DNA of 42,183 nt from Bacteroidota bacterium (GTDB taxonomy: Bacteria; Bacteroidota; Bacteroidia; Bacteroidales; FEN-979): positions 1 through 42,183 of the forward strand of contig JAUZOW010000003.1 of NCBI GenBank assembly GCA_030706225.1, written 5' to 3'. The number at the start of each line of letters is the position of its first letter. Position 1 is the first letter of the stretch. Shown here piece after piece: positions 8,544 to 27,000 of the stretch. The notes under the pieces were generated by a model, which was given only the letters and a program-made list of their open reading frames with translations, was not told the origin of the DNA and searched no databases. Made by a program: the position numbers and the translations under genes.

Positions 8544-8645
8544 GGATAAGGGACGATATTAGGGGTTCTTGTTTCCATAACGTAATTTTATATAAAATAA
8601 TCTCACATAGGTATATTGTTTTATCATTTAAACAACGGAAATACA

Positions 8646-11600
8646 ATGAAAATAAGAAATTTTTTATGTATGCTGGCACTGGTTGTGCCGGGATTGTTTT
8701 ATGCTGAATTCGTTCATGCACAATGGAATACAAATACTTACGTCAACCTGATGATTTCTTCCTTATCCGATGATGATCAGCAATCCATAGCTACCACAGA
8801 TGGCAAAACATGGATCGCTTTTTACAGTCAGAATGGTAGTGACTATAATATGAGGGCACAATTGATCGATGCAAACGGAAATAAAATGCTGGGAACGGAT
8901 GGGATGCTTGTAAGCAGCCAGCCTACGGGATCAGCGACCTTTGTTTTTAATGTATGCATTGATGCCTCCAATAACCTGATCATTGCATGCCAGGATGAAC
9001 GTTCGGGAGGAGATCAGGCAGTGTTGTACAAAATTTCCCAATCCGGTACCCATTTATGGAGTTCTTCGGGTGTAATTCTGGGATCCGGTCTTGCTCCTTA
9101 TCCTGCTGTTTTATCGACAGGTGAAGTGGTTGTGGCCTGGAATGAGAGCAACAGCAATACGTTAAATATTCAGAAAATAACTACTTCCGGAACGCTTGCC
9201 TGGTCTACTCCGGTTCAGGTCATGGTCGGAACATCGACAACAACCCGCGGGCAAATTTTTCCCTGTACAGGCGGGAAGTTCAGTATGGTATTCCAGAAAA
9301 GAAGTTATGGGATCTCCACGACACTTTATGCCCAGATGTTTGATAACAACGGAACTTCCCAGTATACTGCAGTTCAGATATGTAATGAAACTACCAGCGG
9401 CGCCCGGTATTATTCAATTACAGGAGAAGGGGATGTTACCTATTTCGGATATTACAGTTCATCAAGCAATCGATTTAACTCCTACATTCAGCGCATTAAT
9501 GCCGACGGGAGTCTTCCCTGGGGAATAAACGGATCTCATTTCAATACAAGTACCAGCTCCGGCGACAATTACCAGGTAGAGACCAATATCGCGCAAACCA
9601 ATGGCTCTTCCTATATATGGGCAGTTGCCACTTTTTGTGATCCGAATCAGACCATTTATGGCGTTTATGTGCAGAAATTTATCAAAACAACCGGAGCACG
9701 GCAATTTACCGATCAGGGGAAAGTGGTTTATGCCGTCAGTGCCAATTGTGACAGGCAGGAAGGAGATATTGCCCTGGTTTCGGATACTCCAATGTTCATG
9801 AGTTATGATGTCTCGGAAAAGATCTATGCAACCCGTTTGGATGCTTCAGGAAATTTCGTCTGGAATCCATTCAGGGTTGAAATCAGTTCGACCACAGCCA
9901 CTGCTTCGGTCCCGAAAATGAGATACGGATTTACTCCCGACGGGCCTAACCGCTGTGCCGGCGTCTGGACGGAAAACAGAGGTTCCGGCTATAGAGGTTA
10001 TGCACAGGGAATTACCATAGGAGGACTTATCGGCCTTCACGTAGCTACCCAGAATAATGTTCCGCCTGTTATTTCTACATCCGGGGGAACGCTACAAATG
10101 GTCGATACAATAATCCCGGCAACCGCCAGCCAGAGCGTTACATGGAGCATTGTTCCCGGAACAGGACAGGCATCTATCAACACGACCGGTTTGGTTACTG
10201 CCATTTCCAACGGCACAGTATGGGCTAAAGCTGTGGCTGTACAGGATGTTACATTGAAAGATTCCCTGATGATCACAATCTCAAATCAGAGTTCCCCTCT
10301 CGTCACAACTACTGCAGCTACCAATATCGGACTTTACACTGCTACAGTCAACGGGACTGTCAACGCCAATAATTTCACCTGTACGGTGACGTTTGACTGG
10401 GGACTTACCACATCATATGGAAATACAGCAACTGCAACCCCACCGACAGTCACCGGAAATACCGTTGTACCGGTGCTTGCAAACCTTTCAGGACTAACAA
10501 CGAATACGGTGTATCATTTCCGGTGTAAGGCCACAAACTCCTACGGGACTACTTACGGACAGGACCTGACTTTTACGACTGCCTGCATTCCGGTGGGCGC
10601 TGCAGGACCGATAACCGGGCCGGCCAGTGTCTGTGCCAACTCGACAGGTAAAGTATATTCTGTCGATTCAGTATCCAACGCGACTTCCTATCTCTGGACA
10701 CTCCCATCCGGAGCATATATTACCAACGGACAAAATACACGGACCATTACCGTTACTTTCGGCGCTGTTTCCGGCAACATTTCTGTCTCCGGATCCAACG
10801 GATGCAATAGTGGCACATCCTCTTCCCTTGCTGTCACAGTGATTCCATCACCTGTACCGACGATAACCGGACCGAATTCCGCTTGCGTAAGCACGAATGC
10901 TGTCACCTATTCTACGGAAGCAGGAATGAACAGCTATGCATGGACAATCTCTTCCGGAGGAACGATCATTTCAGGCACCGGTACCAATCAGATTTCTGTT
11001 CAATGGACGGCGGCAGGATCTCAGTCGCTCACAGTGACCTATGCTTCTCCGGAAGGATGTACACCGTTTGCTCCCGCTTTTCTGGGAGTTACGGTAAATG
11101 CGGTTCCGGATCCGGCCGGAGCTGTTACAGGCCTTTCAACCGTATGTGCGGGACAGCAAGGAGTGGTATATTCCATTGATTCAGTTGCCAATGCGATAAG
11201 CTATGTCTGGAATGTTCCTACCGGAGGAACCATCGCTACCGGACAGGGCACCAGCTCAATTACCGTGAATTATGCTAATACTGCAACATCCGGTAATGTC
11301 ACCGTTTATGCTTCCAATTCCTGCGGCGACGGCCAGTCATCTTCCATGCCGGTTTCAGTTAACCCGATACCTCCTGCACCGGTAATCACTCTGAATTACA
11401 TGACGATACTGTCCAGCAATACTGCCACAGGAAATCAATGGTACAAAGACGGCTCTGCTATAACCGGAGCGACAGGACAGACCTGGAATTGTCAGCTAAC
11501 CGGTAACGGCTGGTACTGGGATGTTGTTTCACTGGAAGGTTGTTCGTCAGATACTTCGAATAATATTTATGTGATTGTCGAAGGAATCGGAAATTACCCG

Positions 11601-11855
11601 GAAAATACTTTCAGTATTTATCCGAATCCAAGTAACGGAAGGTTCTTCATTCTTGGAAACGGAAGTATTTCAGGGAATTTCGATATGTATGTGATAAATT
11701 CAATCGGAGCAAAAGTTTATTCCGCGAAGGATATAAATATCAACCGCCGGACACCGGCCACTATAGATCTGAGTTCTCTCACAACAGGACTCTATTCGGT
11801 CATTCTGCAGAACAACAATATCTGGATTATTAAGAAGGTTCTAATAGAAAAATAG
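8646..11855 (+). CDS. Large multidomain secreted protein with type A T9SS C-terminal domain
   Basis: This 1069-residue protein has a clear signal peptide (residues 1-26, ending FVHAQ). The first 460 residues form a beta-rich region with repeated LDASGNFVWNP-like strands, typical of beta-propeller folds. There follow a BIG2-type Ig-like domain (about 472-548), a fibronectin-III-like domain (about 550-648) and three PKD-like domains (about 648-908), each with a W-x-x-P/S-x-G core. The final about 80 residues start with FSIYPNPSNGRF, the type A Por/T9SS sorting signal that leads to export, cleavage and usually surface anchoring. The ATG at 8646 was chosen over an upstream in-frame codon because the signal peptide begins there. 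No catalytic domain is recognised; adhesion or matrix function is a guess. Confidence 0.88.
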   Translation: MKIRNFLCMLALVVPGLFYAEFVHAQWNTNTYVNLMISSLSDDDQQSIATTDGKTWIAFYSQNGSDYNMRAQLIDANGNKMLGTDGMLVSSQPTGSATFVFNVCIDASNNLIIACQDERSGGDQAVLYKISQSGTHLWSSSGVILGSGLAPYPAVLSTGEVVVAWNESNSNTLNIQKITTSGTLAWSTPVQVMVGTSTTTRGQIFPCTGGKFSMVFQKRSYGISTTLYAQMFDNNGTSQYTAVQICNETTSGARYYSITGEGDVTYFGYYSSSSNRFNSYIQRINADGSLPWGINGSHFNTSTSSGDNYQVETNIAQTNGSSYIWAVATFCDPNQTIYGVYVQKFIKTTGARQFTDQGKVVYAVSANCDRQEGDIALVSDTPMFMSYDVSEKIYATRLDASGNFVWNPFRVEISSTTATASVPKMRYGFTPDGPNRCAGVWTENRGSGYRGYAQGITIGGLIGLHVATQNNVPPVISTSGGTLQMVDTIIPATASQSVTWSIVPGTGQASINTTGLVTAISNGTVWAKAVAVQDVTLKDSLMITISNQSSPLVTTTAATNIGLYTATVNGTVNANNFTCTVTFDWGLTTSYGNTATATPPTVTGNTVVPVLANLSGLTTNTVYHFRCKATNSYGTTYGQDLTFTTACIPVGAAGPITGPASVCANSTGKVYSVDSVSNATSYLWTLPSGAYITNGQNTRTITVTFGAVSGNISVSGSNGCNSGTSSSLAVTVIPSPVPTITGPNSACVSTNAVTYSTEAGMNSYAWTISSGGTIISGTGTNQISVQWTAAGSQSLTVTYASPEGCTPFAPAFLGVTVNAVPDPAGAVTGLSTVCAGQQGVVYSIDSVANAISYVWNVPTGGTIATGQGTSSITVNYANTATSGNVTVYASNSCGDGQSSSMPVSVNPIPPAPVITLNYMTILSSNTATGNQWYKDGSAITGATGQTWNCQLTGNGWYWDVVSLEGCSSDTSNNIYVIVEGIGNYPENTFSIYPNPSNGRFFILGNGSISGNFDMYVINSIGAKVYSAKDININRRTPATIDLSSLTTGLYSVILQNNNIWIIKKVLIEK

Positions 11856-11900
11856 CTGCAGAGATTTCCGGAACAGGAAAATATTGCGATAATCCGGATT

Positions 11901-11932
11901 TTTCCGGCGTTCGTTGCCAGATTTCCGGCGTT
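11901..11932 (+). promoter_or_regulatory. 11-bp direct repeat with 21-base period (LytTR-like site)
   Basis: TTTCCGGCGTT occurs at 11901-11911 and 11922-11932. LytTR regulators such as AgrA and AlgR bind pairs of about 9-bp direct repeats with a period of 21-22 bases, with GTT in the core, as here (CGTT). The pair lies 36-67 bases upstream of a -7 box at 11968, an activator position. Spacing and sequence are seen; LytTR binding is inferred. Confidence 0.5.
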
Positions 11933-11967
11933 TAATAAGTCGCTGATTTTTTTTCAAAACCGGGTTA

Positions 11968-11975
11968 TATTTTTG
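11968..11975 (+). promoter_or_regulatory. -7 box in the intergenic region before LytTR gene 1
   Basis: TATTTTTG matches TAnnTTTG. There is no TTG 19-20 bases upstream, only a T-run, which fits a promoter that needs an activator bound at the direct repeat 36 bases upstream. Transcription would start near 11982. Confidence 0.5.
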
Positions 11976-11997
11976 TTCCTGTTTCACAGATTAATAA

Positions 11998-12111
11998 ATT
12001 ATCTCTGCCCTAGTTGCTGCATTATCATCTCTTCCACTGTCCCGGAAAATTAGGGGGGTTCATTAGCTCTATTAAAAGAGGGGAGGAACACCGGGGCAGG
12101 GCAGAGATAAT
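11998..12111 (+). repeat. Structured intergenic repeat, copy A
   Basis: A 114-base element bounded by a perfect 13-bp inverted repeat, ATTATCTCTGCCC at 11998-12010 and its complement at 12099-12111. Inside, CTGTCCCGG (12036-12044) can pair with CCGGGGCAG (12091-12099) with one G-U pair, and CTCTATTAAAAGAG forms a small inner hairpin. The reverse complement of a second element at 17030-17130 shares the same ordered blocks: ATCTCTGCC, CTCTTCCA, GTCCCGG, GGGGAGG and CAGAGAT. It resembles a MITE-like or palindromic intergenic repeat. No clear target duplication is visible. Confidence 0.75.
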
Positions 12112-12150
12112 CGATTTAAATTCCTCATTTTCCTTGTTTGTTATTTTGTC

Positions 12151-12179
12151 CCGTCACCAGAAAGGTGACGGAGCTTTTT
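12151..12179 (+). terminator. Intrinsic terminator in the LytTR upstream region
   Basis: CCGTCACC at 12151-12158 and GGTGACGG at 12164-12171 form a perfect 8-bp stem with a 5-base AGAAA loop, followed after AGC by TTTTTATTT. It is 140 bases upstream of the LytTR start, so it ends a transcript that begins before it. Confidence 0.75.
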
Positions 12180-12228
12180 ATTTAAACAGAAGAAAATCTG
12201 ATAAATGGGCATTTCTTCTTCCGGAATT

Positions 12229-12244
12229 TTACACAAAAGTGTAA
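12229..12244. promoter_or_regulatory. Short palindrome upstream of LytTR gene 1
   Basis: TTACAC-AAAA-GTGTAA is a perfect 6-bp inverted repeat with a 4-base spacer, 75 bases before the ATG. A weak -7-like TAACTTTA follows near 12291. It could be an operator for the regulator's own promoter; this is inference. Confidence 0.35.
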
Positions 12245-12318
12245 TGTTTCTGTAGACAAATGATACGCTGGCAGGCATTTTCAGGCTGATTAACTTTATC
12301 GCTCCTAAACCTTCTTGA

Positions 12319-13176
12319 ATGGATACCGAAAGTTTAATAGCCCAAATATATTCCCGGAAGCCTGAAAAAAAAACATCCTGCATCATGATTGATGATGAGG
12401 AATCAGCAAAGGAATCCTTTAAGGAAATCATAAGAGAATATTTTACAGATCGGCTTGTACTTCTTGGAACTGCCGGGTCCGTTAAGGATGGAGTAAACCT
12501 GGTCCGACATTACAACCCGGACATTATTTTCCTTAATATTGAACTACCGATAGAATGTGGATTTAAGCTGTTTAATTATTTCCCTGATTGTTCTTTTGAA
12601 GTCATCTTTACCACTTCTTTCAAACATTATACCATTGAAGCCATTAAATACTCTCCGATAGACTACCTTCTGAAACCCATCGATTATTTGGATCTGAAAA
12701 ATGTAATGGACCGGTATGAAAAAAAAATGCGGGATTATTCGGTTCGTCTGAAATTAGAAAAGCTCCTTTCAAACCTTTCTGCCGGAGCTGATATTAATCA
12801 GAAAGTAGCTCTTCCAATAACAGATGGATTTCAGATGGAAAAGATCAATGATATCATGTATTGCGAGGGAGATCTTAACTATTCCAGGATCCACACATCC
12901 GATGAACGAGTGTTCGTCGTTTCCCGGACGCTGAAAGAGATTGAAGGAATGCTGGATACTCCGTATTTCTTCCGTATCCATAAATCGTATCTTATCAACA
13001 TGAATTATGTTAAAATGTATTCCCGAAACGATAGCTATGGCATTTTCCTTGAAAATAATGAATGGCTGCCTGTTTCTACCCGTAGAAAAGATGAGTTTGT
13101 AACGGTTCTGACAAACTGGAGAAATAATATGGTGGGGAGAACGGGTAATGTCATGCATTCCTTGAATCATCATTGA
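12319..13176 (+). CDS. LytTR response-regulator-like protein lacking the phosphoacceptor Asp
   Basis: This 285-residue protein has a receiver domain (about 20-140) and a LytTR DNA-binding domain (about 165-270, with FFRIHKSYLINMNYV and LPVSTRRKDEF). The acidic pair D25/D26 and the conserved K119 (DYLLKP) are kept, but the phosphorylation site reads IIFLNIELP: Asn73 replaces the expected Asp, and the usual following MPG is altered to LPI. The codon is AAT, one base from GAT. Such receivers are thought to act without phosphorylation or to bind another ligand. It has a 20-residue N-terminal extension and no histidine kinase beside it. It follows a 463-base non-coding region rich in signals. Confidence 0.9.
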   Translation: MDTESLIAQIYSRKPEKKTSCIMIDDEESAKESFKEIIREYFTDRLVLLGTAGSVKDGVNLVRHYNPDIIFLNIELPIECGFKLFNYFPDCSFEVIFTTSFKHYTIEAIKYSPIDYLLKPIDYLDLKNVMDRYEKKMRDYSVRLKLEKLLSNLSAGADINQKVALPITDGFQMEKINDIMYCEGDLNYSRIHTSDERVFVVSRTLKEIEGMLDTPYFFRIHKSYLINMNYVKMYSRNDSYGIFLENNEWLPVSTRRKDEFVTVLTNWRNNMVGRTGNVMHSLNHH

Positions 13177-14111: not shown

Positions 14112-17030
14112 ATGAAAAAAACTTTTAAAATCATCGGAATTTTCTTTGCTGTTGTTCTCGTATTGTTCCTTTTTTTAGTTCTTTCCCCTTTTATTTTCAG
14201 GGAGAAATTTTCTGAAATAGTTAAAAATACCGCCAATAAATCCCTAAAGACGGAAATGAACTATTCGAAACTGGATATTTCATTTTTACGCCATTTCCCC
14301 AATCTTACCATTTCACTGGAAGATTTCTCCCTGAAATCTTCGGCTCCCTTTTCAAGAGACACCCTCATCAGTGCCCGGGAGATTTCCTTCGGCATTAACC
14401 TGGCCAGCATTTTCCATGGGCCTGTCCGGATCGATAAAGTTTATTTAAACCGTGGACGTATTGTTCTGAAATACAATGAAAAAGGTGCATCGAATTTTGA
14501 TGTGGTCAGATCTTCTTCAGATACTGTAAAAACTGCTCAAACAACTCCTGCCGGGATTGCTAATATAAAAATTGAGCATATTATTGTATCCAAAACCAAC
14601 CTGATCTACAGCGACCCTTACATTCCAATGGAGATTAAAGTGCAGGGCCTCAATTACAGTGGGAAATGCGATATCACGCAGGACATCCTTCACCTGAAAT
14701 CAAGAGTGAGGATTGATTCCATTTCCGTCAGGTATGACCAGTATCAAATTGTCAGGTCAAAGCCGGTCAAGGCTAACCTGACTACCAGTATCAACCTGAA
14801 TTCTTTCGATATGAAATTTGAAAAGAATGATCTTCATATCAAGGATATTCCTTTTGAATTCCGGGGGGAATTTAATTTCCGGAAAGGCGGATACGCGTTT
14901 TCGTTATCCCTTTATTCGACAATGGGGGATGAATATCTGGGAGGGTATCTCTGGCTGATCAGCGAAAAAAACCTTTGGATCTATGTCAAAGCCGGAGCTA
15001 AGGCTAACCTTGAAAACTGGGCGAAGGGATTTGGAATTCGTGATGTTGATCTGAAAGGACTCTTTACCCTGAAAGTAGATGCTGAAGGAGAATATATTAC
15101 CGGACAAAATCCCGAAAGCAGAAAACCAGATACCATCCCTCTGAGCATTCCTAAATTCAGTGTGTCTTCTGATCTGAAGAACGGATATCTTCATTTCAGA
15201 AAAGTTCCGCAGGCAATTTCTAACATTTCCTTCAACCTGACTGCATCCTGTTCCAATAACGATTACCGTACCGTAAACCTGCAATTGGAAAATCTTAAAG
15301 CCCGGTTCCTGAAAAACCAGATAGATGGCTATATCCGGGTTAATGGAATGGATCAGTTGCCTGTGGATGCCAGGGTGACTACTCATCTCGACCTCTCCGA
15401 ATTAAAGCAGGTCGTCCCGCTTGACAGCATGGATGTCAAGGGAATTCTGGATCTGGATCTTTCGGTAAAAGGCAATTATGCTCCGGAGAAGAAGTTGTTT
15501 CCACTTGCCAAGGTGAATATTGGACTTCAGAACGGATCGGTTCTCACAAAATATTACCCCCATCCGGTGGAGGATATCCAGGCTTCGGCAATACTTATCA
15601 ATCAGACAGGGAAGCTGGCAGATACCAAAATCAATCTTGATCCCCTTTCCTTCCGTTTTGAAGGGAATCCATTTGAAATCCATGCAAATCTTTCAAATCC
15701 TGAGAATCTGGATTATGCCGTAACGGCAAATGGATCCATAGATGTCGCAAGTATTTATAAAGTTTTTTCCCGGGAAGGAATGGATTTGAAAGGCTTTATA
15801 GCTGCCGACCTGAACCTGAAAGGACGCCAGAGTGATGCAATGGCCGGCCGGTATGAAAAATTGCACAACACAGGCAAACTGGTACTTCGTGATATTGCTT
15901 TTACTTCTGAATTTCTTCCCAAACCCTTTGTTGTAAAATCGGGGATATTCCGTTTTGAGAACGATAAGATTTGGTTTGACAAGTTTGTAAGCCGGTATGG
16001 AAATTCCGATCTGACCATGAACGGCCATCTGTTCAATGTACTGAATTACCTGCTGGTTCCCAAACAAAAGCTAAAAGGGAGCTTCGACCTGCATTCCGGA
16101 TATCTGGTAGTGGATGAATTTTTAGCTCCGGAAACGACAACATCGACGGCTCCGAAATCTGCCTCGTCATCTGAAGCAAAGAATGCATCTCAGGCTCCGG
16201 AGGGAGTTATTGTAATCCCGGATGATCTGGAGATCGGATTGAAAGCGGATGTTGGGAGGATAAGTTTTCAGAAACTGAATATTAAAGATCTGGATGCAGC
16301 GGTGGAAGTCAGAGATGGGATATTACATCTCAAATCCATGAGTTTCGATGTGATCGGTTGCAAGGTTAATATGGATGCTACTTACGGAAGTATCACTCCG
16401 GTGAGTGCCTATTTTGATTTTCATGTCAAAGCGGAAGATTTTGATATTAAAAAAGCATACGATGAAATTGAACTTTTCCGGAACCTGACCACTGCGGCCG
16501 GGAAATGTGAAGGGACCGTTTCTCTGGATTATTCACTTAAGGGGAAACTGAAAAGTGGGATGGAACCCATTTATCCGTCTCTTGACGGCGGAGGAACCCT
16601 TTCCCTGAAAAAAGTAAAAGTAATGGGCTTAAAGCTTTTTACTCAAATGAGCAAAAACCTGGATCGGGAAAAGATCAATAATCCGGATCTTTCCAAAGTG
16701 GAAATAAAAACCACGATCAAAAATAATGTCATTTCCGTTGAAAAAACAAAATTGAAATTCGCCGGTTTTCGTTTTAAAGTGTCAGGGGAGACTAATTTTA
16801 ACGGAAGCCTGAACCTTAAAGCCCGGTTGGGGTTACCGCCTCTCGGTATTTTCGGGATTCCTATCCGGATCCTTGGGACACAGGATAAGCCAAAATTTAA
16901 ATACGGTCGGGGAAATAATGATGAATCGGTAGAAGAAACGCAATATTCTGATACCATTCCTGCAGATGTACTTCAAAAGATTAAAAATGTTAAAGAAGAA
17001 GATCTGAAAGATGAAACGCCTGAAAAATAA
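14112..17030 (+). CDS. AsmA-family outer-membrane-biogenesis-type protein
   Basis: This 972-residue protein has an N-terminal membrane anchor (about residues 5-29, IIGIFFAVVLVLFLFLVLSPF) followed by an AsmA N-terminal region (LKTEMNYSKLDISFLRHFPNLTISLEDF) and long beta-rich repeats facing the periplasm. The C-terminal part holds the AsmA-like segment FFRNLTTAAGKCEGTVSLDYSLKG-type pattern near 790-820. Members of this family belong to the bridge-like lipid transfer group and influence outer membrane lipid balance. Residues 690-715 are a low-complexity Ser/Ala/Thr linker. The gene follows aqpZ by 21 bases, and copy B of the structured repeat starts at its stop codon. A specific cargo cannot be assigned. 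Confidence 0.88.
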   Translation: MKKTFKIIGIFFAVVLVLFLFLVLSPFIFREKFSEIVKNTANKSLKTEMNYSKLDISFLRHFPNLTISLEDFSLKSSAPFSRDTLISAREISFGINLASIFHGPVRIDKVYLNRGRIVLKYNEKGASNFDVVRSSSDTVKTAQTTPAGIANIKIEHIIVSKTNLIYSDPYIPMEIKVQGLNYSGKCDITQDILHLKSRVRIDSISVRYDQYQIVRSKPVKANLTTSINLNSFDMKFEKNDLHIKDIPFEFRGEFNFRKGGYAFSLSLYSTMGDEYLGGYLWLISEKNLWIYVKAGAKANLENWAKGFGIRDVDLKGLFTLKVDAEGEYITGQNPESRKPDTIPLSIPKFSVSSDLKNGYLHFRKVPQAISNISFNLTASCSNNDYRTVNLQLENLKARFLKNQIDGYIRVNGMDQLPVDARVTTHLDLSELKQVVPLDSMDVKGILDLDLSVKGNYAPEKKLFPLAKVNIGLQNGSVLTKYYPHPVEDIQASAILINQTGKLADTKINLDPLSFRFEGNPFEIHANLSNPENLDYAVTANGSIDVASIYKVFSREGMDLKGFIAADLNLKGRQSDAMAGRYEKLHNTGKLVLRDIAFTSEFLPKPFVVKSGIFRFENDKIWFDKFVSRYGNSDLTMNGHLFNVLNYLLVPKQKLKGSFDLHSGYLVVDEFLAPETTTSTAPKSASSSEAKNASQAPEGVIVIPDDLEIGLKADVGRISFQKLNIKDLDAAVEVRDGILHLKSMSFDVIGCKVNMDATYGSITPVSAYFDFHVKAEDFDIKKAYDEIELFRNLTTAAGKCEGTVSLDYSLKGKLKSGMEPIYPSLDGGGTLSLKKVKVMGLKLFTQMSKNLDREKINNPDLSKVEIKTTIKNNVISVEKTKLKFAGFRFKVSGETNFNGSLNLKARLGLPPLGIFGIPIRILGTQDKPKFKYGRGNNDESVEETQYSDTIPADVLQKIKNVKEEDLKDETPEK

Positions 17031-17130
17031 ATCTCTGCCTGTCCCGGCTCCCCTCCCCATTTGCAGAACCTGATTGTCTTGTGAAGCCGGGACTTATGGA
17101 AGAGTTGTCAAATTGTTTGAGGCAGAGATT
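17030..17130 (-). repeat. Structured intergenic repeat, copy B (inverted relative to copy A)
   Basis: An outer 11-bp perfect stem, AATCTCTGCCT (17030-17040) with AGGCAGAGATT (17120-17130), encloses a 9-bp perfect stem, GTCCCGGCT (17041-17049) with AGCCGGGAC (17085-17093). Its reverse complement aligns with copy A at 11998-12111. It begins at the last base of the AsmA stop codon and is followed by CTTTTTT, so it may also act as the terminator of the aqpZ-asmA unit. The rest of the 307-base gap is AT-rich, with a perfect tandem 13-mer at 17142-17167 and no gene. Confidence 0.75.
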
Positions 17131-17337: not shown

Positions 17338-18120
17338 ATGGGGGAGAAAATATTGAAAGTGATCCTGATCGATGATGAACCTCAGGCGATTTCAGTCCTT
17401 GAACAAATACTACTCAATTATCCTCGTTTAAAAATATGCGGAAAAATTACAGATCCCGGAATAGCGATGTCGGTGATCCGGGATATCAAGCCTGACTTGG
17501 TTTTTCTTGATATTGAAATGCCTGGGAAAGATGGATTTGAGATTCTTAAGGAAATCAATGACCTGGGGTTGAATCCGTGGATTATTTTTGTGACAGCCTT
17601 TGATCAGTTTGCAATTCGTGCTCTCCGTTCGGCAGCCTTTGATTATCTTTTAAAGCCTGTTGACCTCGAGGAACTGGATAATGCTATAGTCAGGCTTTTC
17701 CGGATGCTTAGCGGAAATTCCCCGGAAAATGATGATAATCCCCTTTCTGAAAAAACAAAAAAATTGATCGTTGAAACAACGGGGCACGGGAAAATAAAAA
17801 TTTCAACCGGTAACGGATTTATATTCCTGAGGCCTGAGGATATTTTCTATATTCTTGCAGATTGGAATTATTCCGAAATCTATTATAGCCAGTATCATCA
17901 CGATATTGTGACGACCAATCTGGGATCCATTTGGAAAATGCTCCCCTCCGGGTCATTTTTCCGGATAACCCGGTCTCTCATCGTCAACCTGAAATATCTT
18001 TCCAAAGTCAACCGGAAAAAGAGGCAGATAATAATTAACAAAGACGGAGATGAATGCTCATTTACAATTCCTCTTTTGAATCTTCGCAAGATGGAGCGTT
18101 TTCTGGATTCTAACCATTAA
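17338..18120 (+). CDS. LytTR-family response regulator
   Basis: This 260-residue protein has a complete receiver domain: acidic pair D12/D13, phosphoacceptor D58 in FLDIEMPGKDGF, and K106 in DYLLKPVD. A LytTR DNA-binding domain fills about 140-258 (FFRITRSLIVNLKYL). Unlike the regulator at 12319 it should be phosphorylated by a histidine kinase, but none is encoded nearby. Its last 11 bases overlap the end of the convergent HlyD gene, so the two transcripts run into each other. It might regulate the efflux operon it faces; that is inference from position only. Confidence 0.92.
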   Translation: MGEKILKVILIDDEPQAISVLEQILLNYPRLKICGKITDPGIAMSVIRDIKPDLVFLDIEMPGKDGFEILKEINDLGLNPWIIFVTAFDQFAIRALRSAAFDYLLKPVDLEELDNAIVRLFRMLSGNSPENDDNPLSEKTKKLIVETTGHGKIKISTGNGFIFLRPEDIFYILADWNYSEIYYSQYHHDIVTTNLGSIWKMLPSGSFFRITRSLIVNLKYLSKVNRKKRQIIINKDGDECSFTIPLLNLRKMERFLDSNH

Positions 18121-21807: not shown

Positions 21808-22482
21808 TTAATTTTTAATGATGTCAGTAATCATACCATCGGTGATGTGAATGATGCGATGAGTTCTTGCAGAAATATCATGTTCATGAGTGACGATCAC
21901 CACTGTGATTCCGGAATTATTGATTTCTTCAAAAAGATCCATCATTTCCATAGAAGTCACCGAATCGAGAGCACCGGTTGGCTCGTCGGCAAGAATCACT
22001 TTAGGCTTTGTGATCAGTGCCCGGGCAATAGCAATTCTCTGTTTCTGTCCTCCTGAAAGTTCTGAAGGAAGATGGAAAGCCCAATCCTTAAGCCCCAGCC
22101 GATCGAGATATTCCATTGCGATCAGATTCCTTTTTTTTCTGCCGATTTTCTGATAATATAATGGCAAGGCGACGTTTTCCATTGCATTTTTAAAAGATAT
22201 CAGGTTAAATGACTGAAAAACGAAACCCAGCATCTGATTCCTTAACCGCGCAGCTTTTTTTTCATTAAGGTTGAATATCTTTGAGCCGTTAAGAGAATAT
22301 TCGCCTTTGTCATAATTATCAAGGATTCCCAGTATGTTTAGGAGAGTGGATTTTCCTGACCCGGATGCACCCATAATCGATATCATTTCCCCTTCTGCAA
22401 TATCAAGGTCGATACCTTTCAATACGTGTAACCGATTTTCACCGGTAATATAGGATTTATGAATGTCCCGGATATGTATCAT
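21808..22482 (-). CDS. ABC transporter ATP-binding protein (MacB/LolD type)
   Basis: This 224-residue ATPase has Walker [10 protein letters not shown] (residues 38-46), the Q-loop (FVFQSFNLI), the signature LSGGQKQR, Walker [13 protein letters not shown] and the H-loop VIVTHEHD. The DEPTGALD form is typical of the LolD/MacB/FtsE group that works with FtsX-fold permeases. It is the first gene of the unit ATPase, permease, permease, HlyD adaptor, starting 16 bases before the first permease. Upstream sequence (22483-22686) shows no clear TAnnTTTG box; the promoter is not identified. Confidence 0.95.
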
Positions 22483-22620
22483 AGAAATTTTCCCTAAAAT
22501 TGAACATTAGACTATTTAAAATTGAATTTGTTACAGAATCACATACAAATTTCATCATGATTTCATGTGAAAGATAATAAAATCTGTTAAACTTCCGTAA
22601 AAATCGATAAAAGAAAAAGA

Positions 22621-24014: not shown

Positions 24015-27000
24015 ATGAATAAAGCATTATTTCTCGTATGCATGATGCTTTTATGCACCGGCATTACCTATAGCCAGAACTCTGATTTAAAACCTAAGGT
24101 TGTAAAACCTGTCTATTTTGATGTATCGCCTCCGTTAAGCGAAATAGCCAGATCTCTCCGTGCAACACCATCAACTTCCTGGAAAGATGGGGTTGTTAAA
24201 AATCATTTCGATCAGCGACAGAATAATAATGCCGTTGTCGTCGATAAGGTTGAACAACAGTCTTATCCTGAATCACCTCTGGTATCAACCGACCAGAATT
24301 TTGACGGAAATACCAATACAGAAGGGTATGTCCCTCCCGATACAGATGGTGATGTCAGCACGAATTATTACTTCCAGGTCGTAAACTGCCATTATTCCAT
24401 TTACAGTAAAACCGGTTCATTACTTCTGGGTCCTGTGGAAAACAGTGCCGTATGGAATGGGATGCCCAATAATTCCAACGATGGCGATGCAGTGGTCATT
24501 TACGACAGCCAGGCTGATCGATGGGTTTTTACCCAGTTTTCATTGCCGAATTATCCTGACGGACCATTTTATCAAATGATAGCCATTTCCCAGACCAATA
24601 ATCCGCTGGGTTCCTGGTACCGTTATGAATATTCGTTCTCAGATATGAACGATTACCCCAAATTTGGAATTTGGCCTGACGGATATTACATGTCGGCCAA
24701 CCGCTTTTCTGCAGGATCGTTTAATTATGCGGGTACAGCAGTTTATGCCTATAACCGGTCCCTGATGCTTATCGGGGATTCAACCGCACAACAGGTTTCC
24801 TTTACTTTATCCTCCTCCGATCCGGCTTTTGGATTTCTTCCGGCAGATTGTGACGGTTCATTTCCTGCTTCCGGTACCCCTGAATATTTTGCTTACATAA
24901 ATAAAAATACATACAATCTAAGGGTTTATCAATTCCATGTCGACTGGACTACAACTTCGAATTCCACTTTCGGGAGCTACCAGGATATTTCTGTTTCTTC
25001 TTTTAATACTACTACTTCACAAAACTATATTCCCCAGCAGGGAACCAGTGTTAAGCTGGATCCGATTGAAGATCGTTTGATGTACCGGATGCAGTACAGA
25101 TCCTTCTCGGATCATAAATCCATGGTCGTTTGTCATAATGTAAATAATACATCCGGCGTTACCGGGGTTCGTTGGTACGAACTCAGAAATACCGGATCGA
25201 CATGGACTAAATACCAGGAAGGAACATATAACCCGGGCGACGGTGCATATCGTTGGATGGGAAGTATTGCCATGGATGCCAACGGTGATATTGCTCTGGG
25301 ATATTCAAAATCAAGTTCCGGTATGTACCCTTCCGTCTATTTTACGGGAAGATTAAGCACGGATGCTCTCAATACAATGACTGTAACCGAAAGTGTGATC
25401 CAGAACGGATCAGGATATCAGAGTTCCAGTTCTCACCGCTGGGGTGATTACAGCGCAATGACCATTGATCCCTCTTCGTCTAATACTTTCTGGTATACTC
25501 AGGAATATATTCAAACTACAGGTCAGGCTAACTGGAAAACCCGTATTGCTTCATTTCATCTGGGAACTGCCGGCGTTCCGCTGTCGGTTACTGCAACGGC
25601 GAATCCTGCAGTCTGTAATCCCGGAGCTGCAGTTCAGCTAAGCACTACGGCTTCCGGAGGAACGGGTTCCTATACCTATTCCTGGTCCTCAAATCCTGCC
25701 GGATTTACTTCCACTTCTCAAAATCCTGTGGCTTATCCGTTAATCAATACAACCTATTCCGTTCTGGTCACCGACGGTGCTTCCTCAGGCACAGGAAGCT
25801 GTTCCGTCACCGTAAACATGAGTGCGACAGCGACAGCTACACCTTCCGTGATCAACCCGGGCAGCAATTCACAACTGAGTGTGTCCGTCCAGGGAGGAAG
25901 CGGTGTTTATACCTATTCCTGGACGTCAATTCCTGCAGGATTTACGTCAACTTCTGCCAATCCGGTGGTTTCACCAGCAATGAATACAAGCTATTATGTG
26001 ACAGTAAGTGATGGCTCTCAAACAGTGAATGCTTCATGTATCGTAACGGTCAACATGACAGTTAACCCTACTGCAACACCTTCTGCGATTAACGTGGGAA
26101 GCAGCTCTCAGCTGAGCGCCAATGTTCTGGGAGGTTCCGGTAACTACACATACTCCTGGACTTCCGTTCCGGCCGGATTCACTTCGACCGGTGCAAGTCC
26201 TGTCGTAACACCTTCCGTAACAACAGTCTATACCGTTGCCGTTAACGATGGTACCCATCTCATGTCGGGTTCCTGCACCGTTTCCGTAAATTTGGCCGTG
26301 AATGCTTCCGCAAACCCATCCTCAATTAATTTGGGAGGAACATCCCAGTTAAGTTCGGTTGCACAGGGAGGGAGCGGAACATTTACTTACTCGTGGGTGT
26401 CCACTCCTGCAGGATTTACATCGAACCAACAGAATCCCGTAGTATCTCCGACAGTAAGCACAATGTACACAGTAACAGCCAACGATGGCTCGCAAAACCA
26501 GAGCGCATCTGCAAATGTCCTGGTCAACATGACGGTAAACGTAACGGCAACGCCTTCCACGATCAATGCCGGACAAAGTTCACAATTAAATACAACGGTC
26601 ACCGGAGGAAGCGGAACCTATACCTATTCCTGGGTATCCAACCCGGCAGGGTTTGCATCCTCCAGCCCCAATCCGGTAGTAACCCCGACGGTCAACACTA
26701 TTTATACGGTTACGGTTAATGACGGTACTTTGAATGCAAACGGCAGCGCAACGGTTAATGTCAATCTTTCATCTTCAGCCAGTGCATCACCTTCTTCCAT
26801 CTGTGCAGGAGATTCGACACAACTTAGCGCAAATGCAATGGGAGGATCTGGTAATTATACCTATAGCTGGACTTCAACACCTTCGGGATTTACTTCAACG
26901 CAGGCAAATCCGGTCGTTACCCCGTCAGCTACGACAACTTATACCGTTCAGGTCATCGACGGTTCCAATACTACCAATAGCATGACGACAGTGTATGTAA

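Follow-up and report, generated by a model that had tools for sequence, protein, structure and literature searches.

The window, which is the whole stretch of 42,183 nucleotides that was analyzed, includes a gap of 463 bases (11856-12318) in which a check of open reading frames found no credible gene. The gap separates a T9SS-cargo-like gene from the gene of a LytTR-domain response regulator, and it holds an ordered set of small features, of which the central one, E1, has a diverged twin, E2, elsewhere in the window.

8616-11855, plus strand: T9SS-cargo-like gene with PKD-like domains and a Por secretion tail, the 5' neighbor of the gap
11901-11911 and 11922-11932, plus strand: perfect 11-bp direct repeat of TTTCCGGCGTT with a period of 21, a possible but unsupported activator site
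11968-11975, plus strand: -7-like box TATTTTTG, which matches the Bacteroidetes TAnnTTTG consensus
11993-12011 and 12098-12116, plus strand: the two sides of a long stem of 19 nt, 89% complementary
12001-12108, plus strand: E1, about 108 bases, closed by stem P1 (ATCTCTGCC/GGCAGAGAT) and with an inner stem P2 (GTCCCGG/CCGGGGC)
12028-12035, plus strand: CU-rich bulge segment TCTCTTCC; the overlapping CTCTTCCA at 12029-12036 is the same in E1 and E2
12151-12171, plus strand: terminator-like hairpin CCGTCACC-AGAAA-GGTGACGG, with a perfect 8-bp stem, a 5-nt loop and a T-rich tail to 12178
12319-13176, plus strand: response regulator with a LytTR domain (P0001), linked to E1 by position only
14112-17030, plus strand: AsmA-like gene, which adjoins E2
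17129-17031, minus strand: E2, the diverged twin of E1, 5 kb away in the intergenic stretch upstream of another LytTR gene
17338-18120, plus strand: response regulator with a LytTR domain (P0003), linked to E2 by position only

Small open reading frames do run across the elements, and these include a 76-residue frame that has no Pfam match and others that are unconvincing. The repeat, the box, the stem and the terminator hairpin that the initial annotation had listed were all found in the geneless gap, and each was compared with chance. The -7 consensus of the Bacteroidetes is TAnnTTTG (PMC7366714). The gap contains one match, at 11968, and at least one is expected in 24% of shuffled gaps, such that the box is present where it had been reported but is not significant when taken alone. 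Judged by the position of TATTTTTG, transcription would start near 11980-11984. A scan for terminators from 11600 to 12500 gave three candidates against a shuffle mean of 0.7, and the one with the perfect 8-bp stem lies inside the gap; the hairpin and its tail at 12151-12178 are probably the 3' end of an E1 transcript. The fold of 11982-12185 has a z of -2.8, and both the long stem and the terminator hairpin exceed chance. A perfect repeat of at least 11 bases at a period of 20-22 appears in one of 1000 gap shuffles and, at a period of 20-23, in 0.075% of gaps from a fifth-order Markov model. The latter figure rises to 1.3% for any period from 10 to 59, and the rarity of the direct repeat is therefore borderline once every period is counted. 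A perfect palindrome, TTACAC-AAAA-GTGTAA, lies at 12229-12244, past the terminator but ahead of the LytTR gene, and is a possible operator.

The outward extension of P1 in E1 reaches 11993-12116, a 5' bulge of 29 nt contains CTCTTCCA, and the loop of P2 contains GGGGAGG. Folding of E1 gives a z of -2.7 to -2.8, and several folds compete with energies within about 1 kcal/mol. P2 is absent from the minimum-energy fold, costs 1.1 kcal/mol and has a mean pair probability of 0.04.

The stem element was confirmed, but the initial annotation had missed the twin: ATCTCTGCC...GGCAGAGAT recur at 17031-17129, ahead of the next LytTR gene. When E2 is read as the reverse complement, the two elements share six blocks in the same order: ATCTCTGCC, CTCTTCCA, GTCCCGG, GGGGAGG, CCGGGRC and GGCAGAGAT. 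The global similarity of E1 on the plus strand to E2 on the minus strand is 52.8, against a maximum of 34 among 1000 shuffles and 23.9 for the other orientation. The agreement is unevenly placed, with 46 of 47 letters identical in the six blocks and 13 of 56, about the chance level, in the remaining stretches. Such a bimodal pattern, as read from the two sequences, is unlike the uniform decay of a dead repeat. All 12 pairs of P1 are kept in both elements, and toward its ends three of them are changed on both sides (U-A/G-U, U-A/A-U and C-G/U-A). These counts come from two sequences only, and 64 of 500 shuffles match the same value, so the covariation of P1 is suggestive and no proof. The conserved blocks, the linkers at chance level and the two-sided changes in P1 fit an element selected for its structure, most likely an RNA.

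The direction of the element was assessed with R3, a two-copy model trained on E1 and E2. Its scores of 116 bits for E1 and 100 bits for E2 are its own and not independent evidence, and its alignment omits one unpaired base per element, which keeps the blocks in register for the aligner. Given that the opposite strands score only about 14 bits with R3, the element appears to be directional, plus for E1 and minus for E2. The fold of E2 has a z of -3.8 on the minus strand and -4.6 on the plus strand, and the CUCUUCCA bulge in E2 is predicted to be unpaired (0.96 or more). Upstream of E1 and E2 there is no common promoter sequence beyond chance (284 of 1000 shuffles score as well), and no perfect TAnnTTTG lies within 150 nt upstream of E2.

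The strong plus-strand fold of E2 bears on the possibility that the two elements belong to the plus-strand genes just before them, as 3'-UTR or terminator elements: the T9SS cargo gene at 8616-11855 and the AsmA-like gene at 14112-17030. E2 begins where the AsmA-like reading frame ends, immediately past its stop codon; both outer sides of E2 are T-rich, and CTTTTTT comes after P1 on the plus strand. The plus strand of E2 resembles a terminator of the AsmA-like gene, which keeps this explanation alive, and no other terminator was found on the plus strand from 11856 to 12151. However, E1 and E2 have opposite orientations relative to those genes, and P1 of E1 is not followed by a T-run but has a separate terminator 43 nt downstream. 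The unpaired CTCTTCCA and GGGGAGG are also conserved, although a symmetric terminator would have no need of them. On balance, we regard the 3'-UTR explanation as rather unlikely.

The same palindromic arms could instead act as DNA, either as remnants of a small palindromic mobile element or as inverted binding or recombination sites that flank the 5-kb segment with the LytTR, aquaporin and AsmA genes. The arms themselves, the exact inversion of one copy relative to the other and the block of genes in between speak for it. The whole genome (2.66 Mb in 241 contigs) contains exactly two copies, E1 and E2, both by R3 and by an independent pattern of the arms, whereas a MITE or REP type would have many. 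No target-site duplication was seen, bimodal conservation is unexpected for a decaying repeat, and searches of plasmids, phages and viral contigs gave no relevant match in the first two and, in the last, matches to the arms with nothing beyond. A role as DNA is therefore unlikely. Elsewhere in the order, one genome (L132; G044:C3, C11 and C23) carries at least three copies of a different palindromic element, which is closed by CTCTGCC(T)...GGCAGAG.

A search of related genomes had been proposed as a check on the element, and its outcome was mixed: the relatives searched lack the stem element, but it is conserved inside the genome as E2. Among 39 genomes of the family, which include none of the same genus, R3 found nothing above noise, and the best of the other matches have an E of about 0.1, lie mostly inside open reading frames and lack the arms. 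No homologue was found with R3 in 392 further genomes from the order, in which one match with an E of 0.002 lacks the letters of P1. The single-sequence model R2 recovers only itself in the family genomes, and a DNA search of 100 relatives gave short chance matches only. Among GTDB contigs there is no relative of P0001, and a pattern of the blocks matches 23 stretches, mostly of GC-rich actinobacteria, with the sole Bacteroidales one lacking P1. The missing homologues are compatible with fast turnover and are no sign of lost function. The best reading is that E1 and E2 are a two-copy, lineage-specific pair of structured RNAs, although the pair is a modest candidate.

The elements lie next to LytTR genes, and the initial annotation had proposed that E1 is switched on by a LytTR protein bound to the repeat with a period of 21, with E1 being either a regulated RNA or the attenuated leader of the gene at 12319. 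In LytTR systems the direct repeats are mostly 12 bp apart and lie not far upstream of the promoter; some of the bound ones diverge from the consensus (PMC6193735). With its period of 21 and its position about 13 nt upstream of the expected -33 element, the repeat in the gap has the geometry of a LytTR promoter (PMC6193735). It agrees with the target arrangement of two repeats of about 9 bp at a period of 20-22 upstream of a promoter. The repeat is rare at a period of 21, and of the window's three LytTR genes, two come after an element. The geometry fits, but the sequence does not support the proposal. When scored with what we take to be the letters of the LytTR consensus, the repeat reaches 13 of 18, below the best score of every one of 200 shuffled gaps (14-17). 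Its core, TTTCCGG, is over-represented about tenfold in the window, with 44 occurrences on the two strands versus 4.1 expected from base composition. Within three mismatches, the repeat is found at one other place only in the genome, and that place sits in an apparent kinase gene. E2 has no such repeat upstream and points away from its own LytTR gene, and any transcript that joins E1 to the ATG at 12319 past the terminator hairpin ending at 12171 is hypothetical. Taken together, activation by a LytTR protein is very unlikely.

The leader version of the proposal fares no better. E1 is sense with the gene at 12319 and E2 is antisense to the gene at 17338; since E2 faces away from the regulator gene and lacks an upstream repeat, the element common to both would not be a LytTR leader, and the attenuated leader is disfavored. 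None of the family genomes that were searched has the element, not even the ones that encode the closest LytTR homologues, and the gaps of LytTR homologues in relatives differ in context. Separately, the window contains 121 copies of TTCCGG on its two strands, versus 14 expected from base composition. A 10-bp direct repeat of TAAAATTGAA with a period of 22 lies at 22495-22526, directly upstream of a minus-strand gene (21808-22482), and a 237-base unit is repeated six times in tandem at 25656-26943, inside a gene with SprB repeats and a T9SS tail.

With its closing stem, its large bulge on the 5' side and a length close to 190 nt, the rod of E1 recalls 6S RNA. Yet the genome's single 6S-type RNA is on another contig and E1 has none of its blocks, which refutes E1 as the housekeeping 6S and indicates that E1 is something else; that E1 is a 6S RNA is scarcely credible. 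Neither RF00013 nor RF01685 has a genome match at E <= 10, and both are absent among the matches to E1 up to an E of 10. Sub-threshold matches to RF01685 were found in 20 of 100 relatives, and 19 of these 20 share the blocks ACUCAACA, ACAGGCC and CAGUGGA. When these 19 weak matches from the order were made into a model, R1, it found a single copy in the genome, at C201:4487-4626 (E 4e-15; L089, G000), and likewise one strong copy in almost all relatives.

This 6S-Flavo-type RNA (L089, L061-L106) occurs once per genome across the order and falls below the 85-bit cut-off of RF01685; with R1 it is found at E <= 1 in 39 of 40 genomes, mostly at 1e-9 or better. A boxA-like GTTCTTTGA lies about 52 nt upstream of 35 of 44 copies (L061-L106), compared with 2.3% of random stretches. 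An upstream CCCGC matches a downstream GCGGG-T(n) in 38 of the 44, such that the ends seem to pair as a terminator. An order-wide 6S-type RNA that is missed by the Rfam cut-off is useful for the annotation of these genomes. Together with the T9SS tails and the SprB-type gene, the 6S-Flavo-type RNA suggests that the genome belongs to the Bacteroidota.

For the pair itself, we give roughly even chances to the reading in which a small intergenic RNA has E1 as its structured body and E2 is the paralogue of E1, probably acting in trans. The earlier proposal, an RNA of about 200 nt that carries its own terminator, still is the best reading, given the blocks of E2 and the three two-sided changes in P1, but its regulation by LytTR is not supported. 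What the analysis demonstrates is the sequence, the twin, the conservation of the blocks and the pairing; from these we infer transcription and its ends as well as a pseudoknot, a mode of action and the presence of targets. The E1 transcript would start near 11982 and end at the hairpin at 12151-12178, for a length of about 195 nt. In E2, as the paralogue, the closing stem followed by UUUAUUUUU would serve as the element's own terminator on the minus strand. Both elements are predicted to fold as a rod, with P2 stacked on the 3' side of P1, such that a 5' bulge of about 29 nt presents CUCUUCCA and the loop of P2 holds GGGGAGG. The UCUUCC of the bulge could pair with the GGGAGG of the loop, as a pseudoknot that crosses P2 or as a replacement of P2, and such pairing would account for the conservation of the two unpaired blocks. 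The likeliest action would be that of a trans-acting regulator, through pairing of the bulge to target mRNAs or through a bound protein. A bolder reading, in which E1 and E2 are an undescribed class of RNA that uses the fully conserved CU-rich bulge and G-rich loop as a pseudoknot or a two-state switch across P2 for control in trans, is unlikely. Should both be transcribed, this little-studied lineage would possess two sibling small RNAs and, given that two copies outline the core, their targets or protein partners would be directly searchable.

Among known systems, LytTR-family promoters (PMC6193735) resemble the gap in their direct repeat with a period of 21 shortly upstream of a promoter-like box, but the gap repeat matches the consensus no better than shuffled DNA. 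Both 6S RNA and 6S-Flavo (RF01685) are like E1 in rod, closing stem, large 5' bulge and length, whereas E1 has no sequence blocks in common with 6S-Flavo. Sibling, or paralogous, small RNAs likewise come as two copies per genome whose core blocks are kept while the linkers diverge; in contrast to them, E1 and E2 have no shared promoter. The canonical intergenic small RNAs of B. thetaiotaomicron have an upstream -7 box and a downstream intrinsic terminator (PMC7366714). No sequence relation is shown to the Bacteroides RNAs GibS and BTnc201, and E1 and E2 differ from these in being predicted transcripts, paralogues in opposite orientation with a rod of P1 and P2. Like GibS and BTnc201 (PMC7366714), however, E1 is intergenic, with a candidate TAnnTTTG box upstream, an intrinsic terminator at the 3' end and a narrow range.
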